Positions 25,554 through 64,000 of a stretch of DNA of 64,000 nt are shown here, in pieces (positions within the stretch are counted from its first letter, which is position 1; each line of letters starts with the position of its first letter). The notes below the pieces were generated by a model, which was not told where the DNA came from, did not search any database, and saw nothing but the letters and a program-made list of their open reading frames with translations. The stretch lies in the NCBI GenBank assembly GCA_021844425.1, contig JAKBTL010000076.1:1-64000 (forward strand), in the 5' to 3' direction. The position numbers were made by a program, and so were the translations under genes. The DNA is from Actinomycetes bacterium (GTDB lineage: Bacteria > Actinomycetota > Acidimicrobiia > Acidimicrobiales > RAAP-2).

Positions 25554-26846
25554 TCAGCCGAGACCCCGCAGCATGCCGTGCCAGTAGAAGGCGGGCAAGC
25601 CGTAGCGTTTCAGAAGCCACATGTCGTAGCGCTCGCGCGTGGTGTCGATGAACGGCAGAGTCGGGTGCGGCGTCAGGCTGTAGTCGAACTCCGCCAGCAG
25701 CATCTTGCCCCGGGCAGTGGTGAAGGGGCACGCGGCGTAGCCGTCGTAGCGCGCAGTGGGCTCGCGCCCACGCAGCGTGGCGAGAACGTTCTCGACGACG
25801 ACAGGCGCTTGCGCACGGATCGCGGCACCCGTCTTCGAGGTGGGAGCGTCGCACACGTCGCCGAGGGAGAACACCTCCGGGTAGGTGGCGTGGCGCAAGC
25901 TGTACCGGTCGACCGGCACCCAGCCGTACGCGCTGGTGCCACCGAGCGCGCCCTCACGGACGAAGACCGGAGCTCGCTGCGGCGGGGCGGCCCACAGCAG
26001 GTCGTAGTCGACGCCCGTACGGGTCTTGCCCTTCGCATCGGTGGTCTCGAAGGTTGCCGTGCGGCGCTCGGCGTCGACCTCGACCAGCTCGACGGAGAAG
26101 CGCGCCCTGATGCCGTAACGCTCCACCACGCCTTCGAGGACGCGCGCGAACTCGGGCACCCCGAAGATGCCTCCCGCCCCCGTCGCGTAGATCACCTCGA
26201 CGTCGCCGAGCGCCCCCCTTCGGTCCCAGTAGTCGCAGGCCAGGTAGGCGGCCTTCTGGGGGGCGCCCGGGCACTTGATCGGCGAGCCGGGCGCGCAGAA
26301 CACCGCTCGTCCGCCACGGAGGCGGCGCACGAGCTCGGACGTCTTCACCGCCAGGTCTGCGGTGTAGTTCGTGGTGGCGCTCGGGCCCGACAGCGCCTCG
26401 GAGAGCCCCGGAACCATGTCGAGAGCGAGCTCGAGCCCAGGGCAGAGCACCAGCACGTCGTAGCCGAGGCGCGCGCCCCCTGCCGTGACGACGACGCGCG
26501 CGCGCGGGTCGATCTCGACCGCGGCGTCACGGACCCAGGACACACCCTGCGGGACGACGTCGGCCTGACGCCGGCGGCTCTTCTCGATCGCCACGACACC
26601 TGCGCCGACCAGGGTCCAAAGGGGCTGGTAGTAGTGCCACAGCGAGGGATCCACGAGAGCGACGTCGTCTTCGCCCGCGCGTCGCAGTCGTGCAGCGACG
26701 CTGATCCCGGCGCTTCCTCCGCCGACGATCACGATCCGATGATGCGAATGCCGCTGCAGCCGCTGCAGCCGCTGCAGCGGCCTGCCGTACGGCTCGGCGT
26801 CGACGGGGTTCTCCGACGGGGTCTTCGGCGTTGAATCTTGAGTCAT
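25554..26846 (-). CDS. sqr: Sulfide:quinone oxidoreductase-type FAD enzyme
   Basis: Membrane-associated flavoprotein oxidising sulfide to sulfane sulfur and reducing quinone. The 430-residue protein has the FAD dinucleotide fold IVIVGGGSAGISVAARLRRAG near residue 38-58, HYYQPLWTLVGAG, and FCAPGSPIKCPGAPQKAAYLACDYW with two cysteines (about 187 and 195) that match the active site of the mitochondrial-type (type II) SQR branch. A second FAD motif FSLGDVCDAPTSKTGAAIRAQAP is present. The N-terminus carries a 9-bp repeat encoding LQRLQRLQR. The ATG stands directly against a 28-bp palindrome and has no Shine-Dalgarno, so the mRNA is probably leaderless. Confidence 0.88.
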   Translation of the reverse strand: MTQDSTPKTPSENPVDAEPYGRPLQRLQRLQRHSHHRIVIVGGGSAGISVAARLRRAGEDDVALVDPSLWHYYQPLWTLVGAGVVAIEKSRRRQADVVPQGVSWVRDAAVEIDPRARVVVTAGGARLGYDVLVLCPGLELALDMVPGLSEALSGPSATTNYTADLAVKTSELVRRLRGGRAVFCAPGSPIKCPGAPQKAAYLACDYWDRRGALGDVEVIYATGAGGIFGVPEFARVLEGVVERYGIRARFSVELVEVDAERRTATFETTDAKGKTRTGVDYDLLWAAPPQRAPVFVREGALGGTSAYGWVPVDRYSLRHATYPEVFSLGDVCDAPTSKTGAAIRAQAPVVVENVLATLRGREPTARYDGYAACPFTTARGKMLLAEFDYSLTPHPTLPFIDTTRERYDMWLLKRYGLPAFYWHGMLRGLG

Positions 26847-26883
26847 TTGGTCGACAATAGTTATTGTCGACCAAAGAAGTCAA
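26847..26883 (-). promoter_or_regulatory. Leaderless SQR promoter covered by a large palindrome
   Basis: On the minus strand TTGACT (26883-26878), an 18-bp spacer and TATTGT (26859-26854) stand 7 nt before the ATG. Perfect 13-bp arms TTGGTCGACAATA / TATTGTCGACCAA with a 2-nt centre occupy 26847-26874, covering the -10 and most of the spacer. A repressor here would block RNA polymerase. Confidence 0.75.
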
Positions 26884-26971
26884 CTTTCCTCGGTGCCTCC
26901 GCGTCGACGCCGCCGGCTGGCGCAGCCGTCACCTCCGTCCCCCGCCGTCAGCTGACGTAGCCTTCGGCGAG

Positions 26972-28255
26972 ATGACCGACGACGCAGCGACGACGCAGCC
27001 GTTCCTCGTGATGGCCAAGCCCGTCGGTCCGATATGCAATCTCGACTGCGGCTACTGCTACTACCTCGGGAAGAAAGCCCTCTTCCCGCACGGTGAGCCG
27101 TTCAAGATGCGCCGCGAGGTGCTCGAGACCTACGTCGCGAAGTACATCGCCGCAAGCCCCGGGCCCCTCGTCCACTTCGTGTGGCACGGCGGGGAGCCCA
27201 CCTTGGCCGGGATCGACTTCTACCGCCGAGTCGTCGAGCTCCAGGCCCGCCACCTGCCCGAGGACTGGCAGTGCCTCAACAGCCTCCAGACCAACGGGAC
27301 CCTGCTCGACGACGCGTGGGGCGCCTTCCTCGCCGAGCACCGCTTCTTGGTCGGTCTGAGCCTCGACGGCCCGCCACAGCTTCACGATGCCGGAAGGGTC
27401 GACCGCAGGGGGCGACCGACCTACGATCGGACCCTACGAGGGTTGCGTGCTCTGCGAGCGCACGGCATCGACCCCGACGTCCTGTGCGCGCTCCATGCCG
27501 GCAATGCCAGGCACCCGCTCGACGTGTACCGCTTCTTCTTGGACCTCGGGATCTCGTGGCTCCAGTTCCTCCCTGTGGTGCGCCGCGGCGTAGACGGGCA
27601 CGTGGACAGCTGGTCGGTGTCGCCCGAGCTGATGGGGGACTTCCTCTGCACCGTCTTCGACGAATGGGTCCGCTACGACGTCGGGCGCATCGGCATCCAG
27701 AACTTCCTCGAGCCCTTCCTCGTCGTGAAGGGCCAACCCGCCAACCTCTGCGTCATGGCCGAGACCTGCGGGCGCGCGCTCGCCCTCGAGCACGACGGAA
27801 GCGTGTACGCCTGCGACCACTTCGTCGACGCGCCCCACCGCCTCGGCTCGATCGTCACCGAAGATCTCCGAGACCTCGCCGACGCGCCCGGGCAGCGGGC
27901 CTTCGGCGAAGCGAAGCGCGACGACCTGCCCAGTGCCTGCCGCTCCTGTGACGTCCGGCACTTCTGTCACGGAGGCTGCCCGAAGGACCGCGTCGCGTCG
28001 GACCCGAACGGGGAGCCGCAGCTCAACTACCTGTGCGCCGGCTACCGGAAGTTCTACCGTCACGTCAATCCCTACCTGACGCGCATGGGGCTCCTCGCCC
28101 TCCAGGGGCACCCGGTCACCGGGATCGCGGACGAGCTCGAAGCGGCCGAACGCCACGAACGCCGACTATGGCGCACGGCCCCGAGAAACGGACCATGCCC
28201 TTGCGGGAGCGGGGAGAAGTACAAGCGCTGCTGCCTCCCGCGCCAGCGCCTGTAG
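26972..28255 (+). CDS. Radical SAM/SPASM protein, anaerobic sulfatase-maturase-like, with SEC-C tail
   Basis: Resembles anaerobic sulfatase-maturating enzymes, which make formylglycine from Cys or Ser. The 427 residues hold the radical SAM cluster CNLDCGYCYY (Cys22/26/29), FVWHGGEPTLAG for SAM binding, a SPASM domain with cysteines in CVMAETCGRALALEHDGSVYACDH and CRSCDVRHFCHGGCPKDR, and a C-terminal SEC-C zinc motif NGPCPCGSGEKYKRCC. ATG 26972 is chosen; TAGCCT lies 8 nt upstream. No sulfatase is present in the window, so the target is unknown. It is divergent from SQR, sharing a 125-bp regulatory region. Confidence 0.85.
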   Translation: MTDDAATTQPFLVMAKPVGPICNLDCGYCYYLGKKALFPHGEPFKMRREVLETYVAKYIAASPGPLVHFVWHGGEPTLAGIDFYRRVVELQARHLPEDWQCLNSLQTNGTLLDDAWGAFLAEHRFLVGLSLDGPPQLHDAGRVDRRGRPTYDRTLRGLRALRAHGIDPDVLCALHAGNARHPLDVYRFFLDLGISWLQFLPVVRRGVDGHVDSWSVSPELMGDFLCTVFDEWVRYDVGRIGIQNFLEPFLVVKGQPANLCVMAETCGRALALEHDGSVYACDHFVDAPHRLGSIVTEDLRDLADAPGQRAFGEAKRDDLPSACRSCDVRHFCHGGCPKDRVASDPNGEPQLNYLCAGYRKFYRHVNPYLTRMGLLALQGHPVTGIADELEAAERHERRLWRTAPRNGPCPCGSGEKYKRCCLPRQRL

Positions 28256-30290: not shown

Positions 30291-31034
30291 GTGCAACCTG
30301 CGGCAGACAACGCAGCCGCATCCAGACGCCATCTGGTCGACGCGGAGGACGCACGCTTCGCTTCTCACGTAGCTGCCGTCACCGCTGCGTTCGGCGACCC
30401 GACGCGTCGGGACATCTTTCTTCGCGTCCGATCTTCGCCCGGGATGACCGCCTCCGAGGTCGCCTCGGCGTTCTCGCTGCACCCCAACGTCGCTCGCCAC
30501 CACCTCGAGCGCCTCCTCGCAGGCGGCTACCTGCGCGTCGAGACCGAGCGCCGGCCGCAGGGAGCAGGAAGGCCGTCGAAGCGGTTCTTCCCGGCCACGG
30601 GCGACGCTGCGGTCGAGTTCCTCACCCGACGCGACGACCTCCTCGTGACGCTCCTCGGAAAGGCCCTCGACCTGCTCGGTCCACAGGTGGCAGAAGAGAT
30701 GGCCGCCCAAGTGGGCGAGAGCTACGGCCGGTCCCTCGCTCGAGAGATGGGCGTGAGCGAGGGTCAGCGCTCCGTGCGCAACGCAATGAGGGTGGTCGCC
30801 GACATGTTGACCGCGCACGGCTTCGCCGCCCACGCAGAGGACCAGAGCGGCGGAACTGCAGTTATCGCAGAGCAGTGCCCGTTCGGCACCGCTGCAGCGA
30901 GCCACCCGGTCCTGTGCGCCGTCGACCGCGGCATGGTGAAGGGGCTCCTGTCGGGCCTCTGCCGGGAACGGCCGGCGCCGGTGGTGCTCTCCTCCAGGGC
31001 CCGCGGCGACGACACGTGCGTCGCGCGGGCGTGA
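30291..31034 (+). CDS. Winged-helix regulator with C-terminal cysteines, SufR-like
   Basis: Probable Fe-S-sensing repressor of 247 residues. The N-terminal winged helix (about 20-90) includes AFGDPTRRDIFLRVRSSPGMTASEVASAFSLHPNVARHHLERLLAGGYL and the wing ERRPQGAGRPSKRFF. The C-terminal region carries four cysteines in the spacing CX12CX14CX18C (EQCPF to VLCAV to GLCRE to DTCVA), close to SufR's cluster ligands. GTG 30291 is supported by a TAGACT box 7 nt upstream (leaderless). It is followed 44 bp later by a cysteine desulfurase and is divergent from mrp, so autoregulated control of this Fe-S group is likely. Confidence 0.8.
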   Translation: MQPAADNAAASRRHLVDAEDARFASHVAAVTAAFGDPTRRDIFLRVRSSPGMTASEVASAFSLHPNVARHHLERLLAGGYLRVETERRPQGAGRPSKRFFPATGDAAVEFLTRRDDLLVTLLGKALDLLGPQVAEEMAAQVGESYGRSLAREMGVSEGQRSVRNAMRVVADMLTAHGFAAHAEDQSGGTAVIAEQCPFGTAAASHPVLCAVDRGMVKGLLSGLCRERPAPVVLSSRARGDDTCVARA

Positions 31035-31078: not shown

Positions 31079-32206
31079 GTGCGACGCCACTACCTCGACC
31101 ACGCTTCCACGTCGCCCCTCCGGCCCGAGGCAGCTGCGGCGATCCGCGAGTGGCTCGACGCCCCCGCCGGAGACCCTGGCAGGGTGCACCACGAGGGTCG
31201 ACAAGTGCGCGAGGCCATCGAGATCGCTCGCGAGCAGGTCGCGGCGCTCCTCGGTGTCCGTCCGCTCCAGGTCGTCTTCACCTCCGGCGCGACCGAGGCC
31301 GTCCACGCCGCGGTGTGGGCCGCGACGTGGGACCGCCCCGGCGCGGCGGTCCTCTGCGCCGGCGTCGAGCACTCGTCCGTCCGAGCCTCCTCGGGACGCC
31401 TCGCGCCACTCGTAGAGCTGCCCGTCGACGGCGTCGGACGGATCGACCCCGACGGCGTCGACGCAGCGCTGGAGCGTTCGGGCGGCGCTGTGTCCCTGGT
31501 GCACTGCCAGTGGGCCAACCACGAGGTCGGCACCGTGCAGCCCGTCGCCGAGGTCGTGGAGCGGTGCCGGCGAGCAGGGGTCCTGGTCCATGCCGACGCC
31601 GCCGCGGCATGCGGCCACCTCGAGCTGGACCTCGACCACGGCCCCGACTTCGTGTCGGTGAGCGCGCACAAGCTCGGCGGCCCGTCGGGGATCGGCGCCC
31701 TGGTGCTGCGCCGCGGGCTGCGGGCGGAGCCACTCTTCGTCGGCGGCCAGCAGGAGCGGGCGCGTCGGGCAGGGCTGGAGAACGTCTGCGGCATCGTCGG
31801 CTTCGGAGCGGCGGCCGGCGCACTGGCCGACGGTGCGCTCGGCGACGAGGCAGGTGCTGCGCGCGCCGAGACCGCGGGCGTCGCGCAGGCGGTGCTCGCC
31901 GTGCCGGGAACGGTGCAAGTCGGCGACCCAGACGACCGCGTCCCGCACATCGTGTGCTTCGGCGTCGAAGGGGTCGAAGCGGAGCCCGTGCTCCTCGGGC
32001 TCGACCGCGCCGGGATCGCCGTGCACTCTGGCTCCGCGTGCGCCTCCGAGGCGCTCGAGCCCTCCCCCGTGCTCGAAGCGATGGGCGCGGACCCGAACCA
32101 CTCGCTGCGAGTGTCTGTGGGCTGGTCCACGACCGATGATGACGTGCGCGCCTTCGCCGCTGCGTTCGAGCGGGTGGTCGCCGAGCTGCGGGCCCTTCGC
32201 GCCTGA
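31079..32206 (+). CDS. Cysteine desulfurase (IscS/NifS family)
   Basis: PLP enzyme that removes sulfur from L-cysteine for Fe-S clusters or tRNA thiolation. The 375-residue protein starts at GTG 31079 with RRHYLDHASTSPLRPEA, has TSGATEAVHAAVW, the PLP lysine in VSVSAHKLGGPSGIGALVL (about Lys198), and the catalytic cysteine in HSGSACASEALEPSPVLEAMG (about Cys320), placing it in the IscS/NifS class with a long active loop. It is slightly shorter than E. coli IscS. Downstream of the SufR-like regulator, probably in one operon. No IscU/SufU scaffold is visible nearby. Confidence 0.92.
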   Translation: MRRHYLDHASTSPLRPEAAAAIREWLDAPAGDPGRVHHEGRQVREAIEIAREQVAALLGVRPLQVVFTSGATEAVHAAVWAATWDRPGAAVLCAGVEHSSVRASSGRLAPLVELPVDGVGRIDPDGVDAALERSGGAVSLVHCQWANHEVGTVQPVAEVVERCRRAGVLVHADAAAACGHLELDLDHGPDFVSVSAHKLGGPSGIGALVLRRGLRAEPLFVGGQQERARRAGLENVCGIVGFGAAAGALADGALGDEAGAARAETAGVAQAVLAVPGTVQVGDPDDRVPHIVCFGVEGVEAEPVLLGLDRAGIAVHSGSACASEALEPSPVLEAMGADPNHSLRVSVGWSTTDDDVRAFAAAFERVVAELRALRA

Positions 32207-62930: not shown

Positions 62931-64000
62931 ATGTCCGCTCCGAAGGAAGGCAACGAAGGTGACGCCGTCCAGTCGGCACCCGGCACGCCGCGCGCACCCG
63001 GCACCTCGCGCGCGGTGCGCGTCCCGGACAAGCCGAGCGTCGACGGCCTGGAGACGAAGTGGGGCGAGGCGTGGGAGGCGGCCGGCGCCTACCGGTTCGA
63101 CAGGGACGCTCCTGCCGATCGGGTGTTCGCCATCGACACGCCCCCTCCCACGGTGTCCGGGGCGCTGCACATCGGGCACGCGATGTCCTACACCCACACC
63201 GACGTCACCGCGAGGTTCCAGCGCATGCGCGGGAAAGCCGTGCTCTACCCGATGGGATGGGACGACAACGGGCTCCCCACCGAGCGCCGGGTGCAGAACT
63301 ACTTCGGGGTGCGCTGCGACCCCGACCTCGCCTACGACCCCGGCTTCGAGCCGCCGCCGCAGCCGGGCAAGGAGCTCATCGCGGTCTCCCGGCCGAACTT
63401 CGTCGAGCTCTGCCACCGTCTGACCGCCGAGGACGAGCGGGCCTTCGAGCACCTCTGGCGGACCCTCGGCCTCTCAGTGGACTGGAGCCGGACCTACACC
63501 ACGATCGGAGACGTCGCGCGCAGGGCTTCTCAGCGGGCGTTCCTCCGGATGCTCGCGCGCGACGAGGTCTACCACCACGAAGCCCCGACGCTCTGGGACG
63601 TCGACTTCGGCACGGCGGTGTCCCAGGCCGAGCTCGAGGACCGGGAGCGTCCGGGGGCCTACCACCGGATCCGCTTCGGGCTCGTCGATGTCGACAGCCC
63701 CTCGTCCGTCGAGATCGAGACGACGCGTCCCGAGCTCCTCCCTGCCTGCGTCGCGCTCGTCGCGCACCCTGACGACGACCGCTACCGCCCGCTCTTCGGG
63801 CGCAGCACGTGCACGCCGCTGTTCGGCGTGCACGTGCCGGTGGTCGCACATCGCCTCGCCGATCCGGAGAAGGGAACGGGGATCGCGATGGTCTGCACCT
63901 TCGGCGACACGACCGACATCGTGTGGTGGCGAGAGCTCGACCTCCCGACGCGCACGGTGGTCGGGCGCGACGGGCGCCTCGAGCCCGTGCCGTGGGGCGC
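62931..64000 (+). CDS. valS: Valyl-tRNA synthetase, N-terminal part (continues past the window)
   Basis: Class Ia synthetase charging tRNA-Val. 356 codons are present without a stop. A 30-residue Pro/Gly/Arg-rich extension precedes VPDKPSVDGLETKWGEAWE; the HIGH motif is TVSGALHIGHAMSYTHTD, followed by YPMGWDDNGLPTERRVQNYFGVRCDP, the insertion SRPNFVELCHRLTAEDERAFEHLWRTLGLSVDWSRTYTTI, and the start of the editing domain (IETTRPELLPACVALVAHPDDDRY). The sequence belongs to the ValRS branch also found in archaea and some bacteria. KMSKS lies outside the window. Confidence 0.93.
   Translation, partial: MSAPKEGNEGDAVQSAPGTPRAPGTSRAVRVPDKPSVDGLETKWGEAWEAAGAYRFDRDAPADRVFAIDTPPPTVSGALHIGHAMSYTHTDVTARFQRMRGKAVLYPMGWDDNGLPTERRVQNYFGVRCDPDLAYDPGFEPPPQPGKELIAVSRPNFVELCHRLTAEDERAFEHLWRTLGLSVDWSRTYTTIGDVARRASQRAFLRMLARDEVYHHEAPTLWDVDFGTAVSQAELEDRERPGAYHRIRFGLVDVDSPSSVEIETTRPELLPACVALVAHPDDDRYRPLFGRSTCTPLFGVHVPVVAHRLADPEKGTGIAMVCTFGDTTDIVWWRELDLPTRTVVGRDGRLEPVPWG

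Follow-up and report, generated by a model that had tools for sequence, protein, structure and literature searches.

The promoter of a sulfide:quinone oxidoreductase-like gene (SQR) in the 64,000-nt stretch of DNA analysed here (the window) carries two neighbouring 27-bp operators whose facing half-sites make up a long perfect palindrome. Across the family, sulfate-assimilation and cysteine genes are preceded by this operator too, and we consider it probable that both copies belong to an Rrf2 regulon, lie over a leaderless SQR promoter and are bound by a repressing IscR/CymR-like Rrf2 protein. For uncultured actinobacteria, sequence alone sufficed to define both the operator and a sulfur-assimilation regulon that spans the family, and to name a candidate regulator, and a sulfide-oxidising enzyme would thereby be assigned to a sulfur-nutrition programme, not to a dedicated sulfide-detoxification circuit.

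The SQR gene (25554..26846, minus strand) encodes an FAD protein that matched Pyr_redox_2 at 60 bits and, as its best NCBIfam model, the type III model SQR_III_seleno at 216.5 bits, below the cut-off of 525. Its ATG (26844-26846, minus strand) is preceded at a distance of 7 nt by a -10 element, TATTGT (26854..26859, minus strand), and, 18 bp further upstream, by a -35 element, TTGACT (26878..26883, minus strand); an earlier note on this DNA had described both, and the interval it reported, ending at 26883, takes in the -35. TTGAC(T/C)-N18-TATTGT was also found in the nearest SQR-bearing relative (G012) and in L010, and the 7-nt distance recurs in L003 and L088. Because the ATG is placed alike relative to the -10 in three genomes (window, G012 and L088), these support the leaderless start that had been proposed, and the 7-nt spacing fits such a predicted promoter. 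The remaining SQR orthologues read start later, many of them after an apparent ribosome-binding site. A 9-bp tandem repeat, GCCGCTGCA, occupies 26750-26781 in the N-terminal extension of SQR (LQRLQRLQR) and is absent from the orthologues in G012 and L088.

Over this promoter the window reads as a palindrome of 30 bp at 26846-26875, TTTGGTCGACAATA-GT-TATTGTCGACCAAA, which has no strand and in which perfect 14-bp arms (26846-26859 and 26862-26875) enclose the 2-nt centre GT. The earlier note had recognised the palindrome and undercounted it, at 28 bp with 13-bp arms, one bp short per arm; it was right that the arms abut the ATG, the outer arm base being the A of the start codon. An inverted-repeat search of the window extended the arms imperfectly to 27 nt (26833-26859 / 26862-26888) at 81% complementarity, and these are exactly the coordinates of the two operators, separated by 2 bp, that emerged from the comparison of about 20 SQR orthologues. 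Operator 2 (26833..26859, minus strand; TATTGTCGACCAAATGACTCAAGATTC) spans both the -10 and the start codon of SQR and is orthologous to the lone operator of other SQR promoters, while operator 1 (26862..26888, minus strand; GAAAGTTGACTTCTTTGGTCGACAATA) covers the -35 and the spacer as a second copy, 29 bp away centre to centre. Each copy is a two-fold site by itself, with the symmetrised consensus AAWSYYGACYRAWTYRGTCRRSWTT and the core GTYGAC-N7-GTCRAC, and their inner half-sites are opposed across the 2 bp. The palindrome is perfect because these facing half-sites carry one shared consensus; the outer half of operator 2 is degenerate in the window (CTCAAG). A GntR/FadR-like reading of GTCGAC and an FNR/CRP spacing were dropped on seeing the N7 spacing and the GACT-N5-AGTC core.

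Upstream regions of orthologues from one family, mostly metagenome-assembled Actinomycetes/Acidimicrobiaceae, revealed a TAATGTTGAC-N7-GTCATGATTA-like imperfect inverted repeat over or near the -10 at SQR identities of at least ~61%, in some orthologues as a shifted variant such as GTTTAC-N7-GTAAAC. The operator was absent in this upstream comparison from SQR orthologues at ~55% identity or less. L010, L087, L088, L004, G012 and the window have the operator twice, the additional copy lying over the -35, some 29 bp further upstream, and L088 has a facing arrangement like that of the window with less perfect symmetry. The single, exceptionally long operator envisaged by the earlier note was accordingly abandoned, since the inner palindrome is missing from most orthologues, which keep the 27-bp operator, and the window has two of these in tandem. 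In G031 (L081), SQR at 54% identity has no operator although that genome has several regulon sites, which suggests later recruitment of SQR.

In the window's own genome, a sequence-only model built from 24 SQR sites (R1) matched the SQR promoter and otherwise only sites preceding a rhodanese-ThiF/MoeB fusion gene (C85) and a beta-carbonic anhydrase gene (C132). Across 17 SQR-bearing genomes it returned 32 matches at E<=0.5, and the same model with its columns reversed returned 0 in those genomes. The non-SQR matches whose DNA was read precede genes for sulfite reductase, a CysO-like ThiS protein, peroxiredoxin, carbonic anhydrase, DUF4395 and one unassigned protein. A refined model of 35 sites (R3) added the own cysD-cysH intergenic region (C127) as a weak match (E 1.4) and found matches in 95 of 172 family genomes at E<=0.1. 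Nearly all inspected sites (77/78) adjoin cysO, peroxiredoxin, cysH/cysD, sulfite reductase, metY, cysK, carbonic anhydrase, cysG, DsrE or a few other genes, a count that is descriptive and no independent test because the gene representatives were picked from the matches themselves; the gene names are mostly backed by Pfam. The rhodanese-MoeB fusion is also among the downstream genes in the own and related Acidimicrobiaceae-like genomes, and no isc/suf or cysteine-desulfurase promoter was found among the inspected sites. Because the motif lies upstream of cysteine and sulfate-assimilation genes and the reversed control is empty, SQR is predicted to belong to their family-wide regulon. Since these genes share its operator, the site is no specific element of sulfide oxidation, whose tight repression the earlier note had read from it. 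At L204 and L212 (G031, G008) the operator precedes the gene of a protein whose similarity to AurF/DUF455 (ferritin-like) is weak.

No regulator gene adjoins the site, as had been observed before, and in the loci read Rrf2 genes are unlinked to regulon genes. Of the four full-length Rrf2 genes in the own genome, one is of a type, C89 (G000:C89:11312-11707), that a family search recovered there and in 17/17 SQR-bearing genomes. It combines an IscR-like YLEQ recognition helix with a conserved GAC(D/N)HEGQC, and its closest solved structures are those of Thermincola IscR (4cic), E. coli IscR and CymR. The protein scored over the Rrf2 cut-offs (Pfam PF02082, 131.9 bits; TIGR00738, 117.4 vs 73.3) and below the NCBIfam cut-offs for the IscR equivalog (93.7 vs 207.55 bits) and CymR (80.6 vs 195 bits). 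Equivalents of the IscR cluster ligands C98 and C104 are present (GACDHEGQC; GACNHEGQC in one copy), while P and L stand at the positions of C92 and H107 in the phmmer alignment, leaving two of the four ligands. We therefore call it IscR/CymR-like and not IscR, two ligands being missing and both scores falling below the cut-offs. This conserved Rrf2 protein is the best candidate for the regulator.

A lesser though appreciable possibility is that the regulon is real and answers to another protein, either a different paralogue within Rrf2 or a cysteine regulator from outside that family. An operator was looked for at the promoter of the C89 Rrf2 gene and not found, so autoregulation lends that protein no support; together with the lack of linkage, and with the complete IscR-like CX6CX5CXXH ligands of one of the four own Rrf2 genes (C93), this speaks for a different regulator. 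Set against it are the other recognition helices of the C93, C112 and C1 types (VPRTFxSQ, VPRRLVPQ), an additional Rrf2 type of some relatives with no recognised counterpart in the own genome, and the agreement of the motif with IscR type 1 in both sequence and spacing. L161 and L164, upstream of CX6CX5CXXH-type Rrf2 genes, and the own L098 show what is possibly a separate motif (ATACGTC..GTAGAAAATT) of other Rrf2 paralogues.

The palindrome is real and regulatory, and no chance event. Perfect inverted repeats whose arms reach at least 14 bp (spacer <=10) occur only twice in the window, and the longest arm in 20 dinucleotide shuffles of it was 11 bp (spacer <=2); the other repeat, GCACGTGCACGCCG / CGGCGTGCACGTGC, with 14-bp arms and a 5-nt loop, lies at the window end (63805-63837). 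Even at 3 mismatches, the own draft genome of 3.0 Mb yields the full palindrome only once, and among 100 genomes (own and relatives) it occurs otherwise only in G012, at the identical position, as the 24-bp core GGTCGACAATAGCTATTGTCGACC; no copy was found in non-promoter repeats. Its perfect symmetry, and the fact that no other stretch is as well conserved between the window and G012 as the inner 24 bp, centre apart, would suit an inner operator of 24-30 bp for a dedicated sulfide or persulfide repressor (ArsR-type SqrR/BigR-like or other). We nevertheless regard such an operator as improbable, as the palindrome is missing in all other orthologues, where the 27-bp operator is kept instead, and two opposed half-sites of one motif account for the symmetry. 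The genome-wide search advised by the earlier note likewise left the palindrome unique, whereas the 27-bp motif, shared by sulfur genes, did define a regulon. That note had also called for a trans-acting persulfide or redox repressor: trans action is plausible, if the repressor exists, but a specificity for sulfide or persulfide is not supported. A persulfide sensor is conceivable, but the motif and gene set point to an IscR/CymR-type Rrf2 protein.

Control by a SufR-like, ArsR-fold winged-helix regulator, encoded about 3.5 kb from the site (30336-31034, plus strand; weak TIGR02702 similarity) beside a NifS/IscS-type cysteine desulfurase gene (31079-32206, plus strand), seems very improbable and was dropped because the linkage to SQR is found only in the window and G012; suf and cysteine-desulfurase promoters are moreover absent among the inspected regulon sites, and the gene's own promoter has no model match. 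That the palindrome is mere chance or a transcript-level feature (hairpin, terminator or mobile repeat) can safely be set aside, given the absence of comparable arms in the shuffles, the one genomic copy, the lack of a T-run and the conserved promoter position in G012.

Returning to an Rrf2 regulon with two operators at SQR, we infer that IscR/CymR-like dimers, probably of the C89 protein, occupy both sites, one over the -35 and the other over the -10 and start codon. The bound dimers would exclude RNA polymerase from the SQR promoter and probably also from that of the divergent gene (26972..28255, plus strand), which encodes a radical SAM/SPASM anaerobic sulfatase maturase (TIGR03942 over cut-off) with a C-terminal SEC-C motif. 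A possible mirror-image TTGAGT-N18-TATTGT (26838..26867, plus strand) could be the promoter of this gene; in G012 the -35 element of that mirror image is not kept. The SQR/radical-SAM neighbourhood is retained in six orthologous loci, which bears out the earlier statement that the two genes have the region in common. A change in cysteine, Fe-S or thiol redox status would free the SQR promoter, the signal most likely being loss of cysteine, cluster or reduced thiols, and SQR would be released along with cysH/cysD, cysO, sulfite reductase and similar genes. Rather more speculatively, and with considerable doubt, SQR might itself be assimilatory: under cysteine shortage it would convert sulfide to sulfane sulfur, with which the co-regulated rhodanese-MoeB fusion would load the carrier CysO to feed cysteine synthesis, and the one IscR-type-1-like Rrf2 regulon would also open the divergent sulfatase-maturase gene so that sulfate esters could be scavenged. 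Sulfatase maturation would fit sulfur scavenging.

Compared with known systems, the sulfide-responsive repressors SqrR/BigR and CstR are alike in placing SQR-type genes under a trans-acting repressor; they belong to other families and recognise other motifs, and the regulon here differs in being assimilatory. A search of the accessible literature found no paper that treats Rrf2 together with SQR or CysO. CymR, the cysteine regulator of Bacillus and Staphylococcus, shares the Rrf2 family and a regulon of cysteine and sulfur genes, but the operator here agrees with the IscR type-1 consensus and the candidate protein falls below the CymR model cut-off. Another actinobacterial Rrf2 sulfur regulator candidate is peg394 of Rhodococcus qingshengii IGTS8, a CymR candidate without linked sulfur genes that was proposed from proteomics as a global sulfur regulator; the accessible part of that report, unlike the present case, gives no operator or regulon (PMC8557817).

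The E. coli IscR type-1 site, of 25 bp, is ATASYYGACTRWWWYAGTCRRSTAT, and in P. aeruginosa the region of iscR that RNA polymerase recognises is covered by two type-1 sites (PMC3899308). The consensus AAWSYYGACYRAWTYRGTCRRSWTT found here comes very close to the E. coli site. Compared over its 19-bp core, our 35 sites agree with the E. coli consensus at 13-18 positions (mean 16.0), against 4-7 of 19 (mean 5.5) for the reversed control. Both window operators belong to the consensus, with 16/19 core and 19-20/25 full positions, and the two published P. aeruginosa sites agree at 15/19 core positions, one of them at 20/25 full. The type-1 operators of E. coli and P. aeruginosa are thus alike in the core SYYGAC-N7-GTCRRS and identical in spacing, and those of P. 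aeruginosa also in lying as a pair over the recognition region. They differ in the outer three bases per side, ATA/TAT there and AAW/WTT here, and in their targets, which are isc promoters there and sulfate assimilation, cysteine synthesis and SQR here, the inspected matches including no isc/suf promoter. IscR type-1-like DNA sites in cysteine metabolism would thus provide a link between the IscR and CymR branches of the Rrf2 family.
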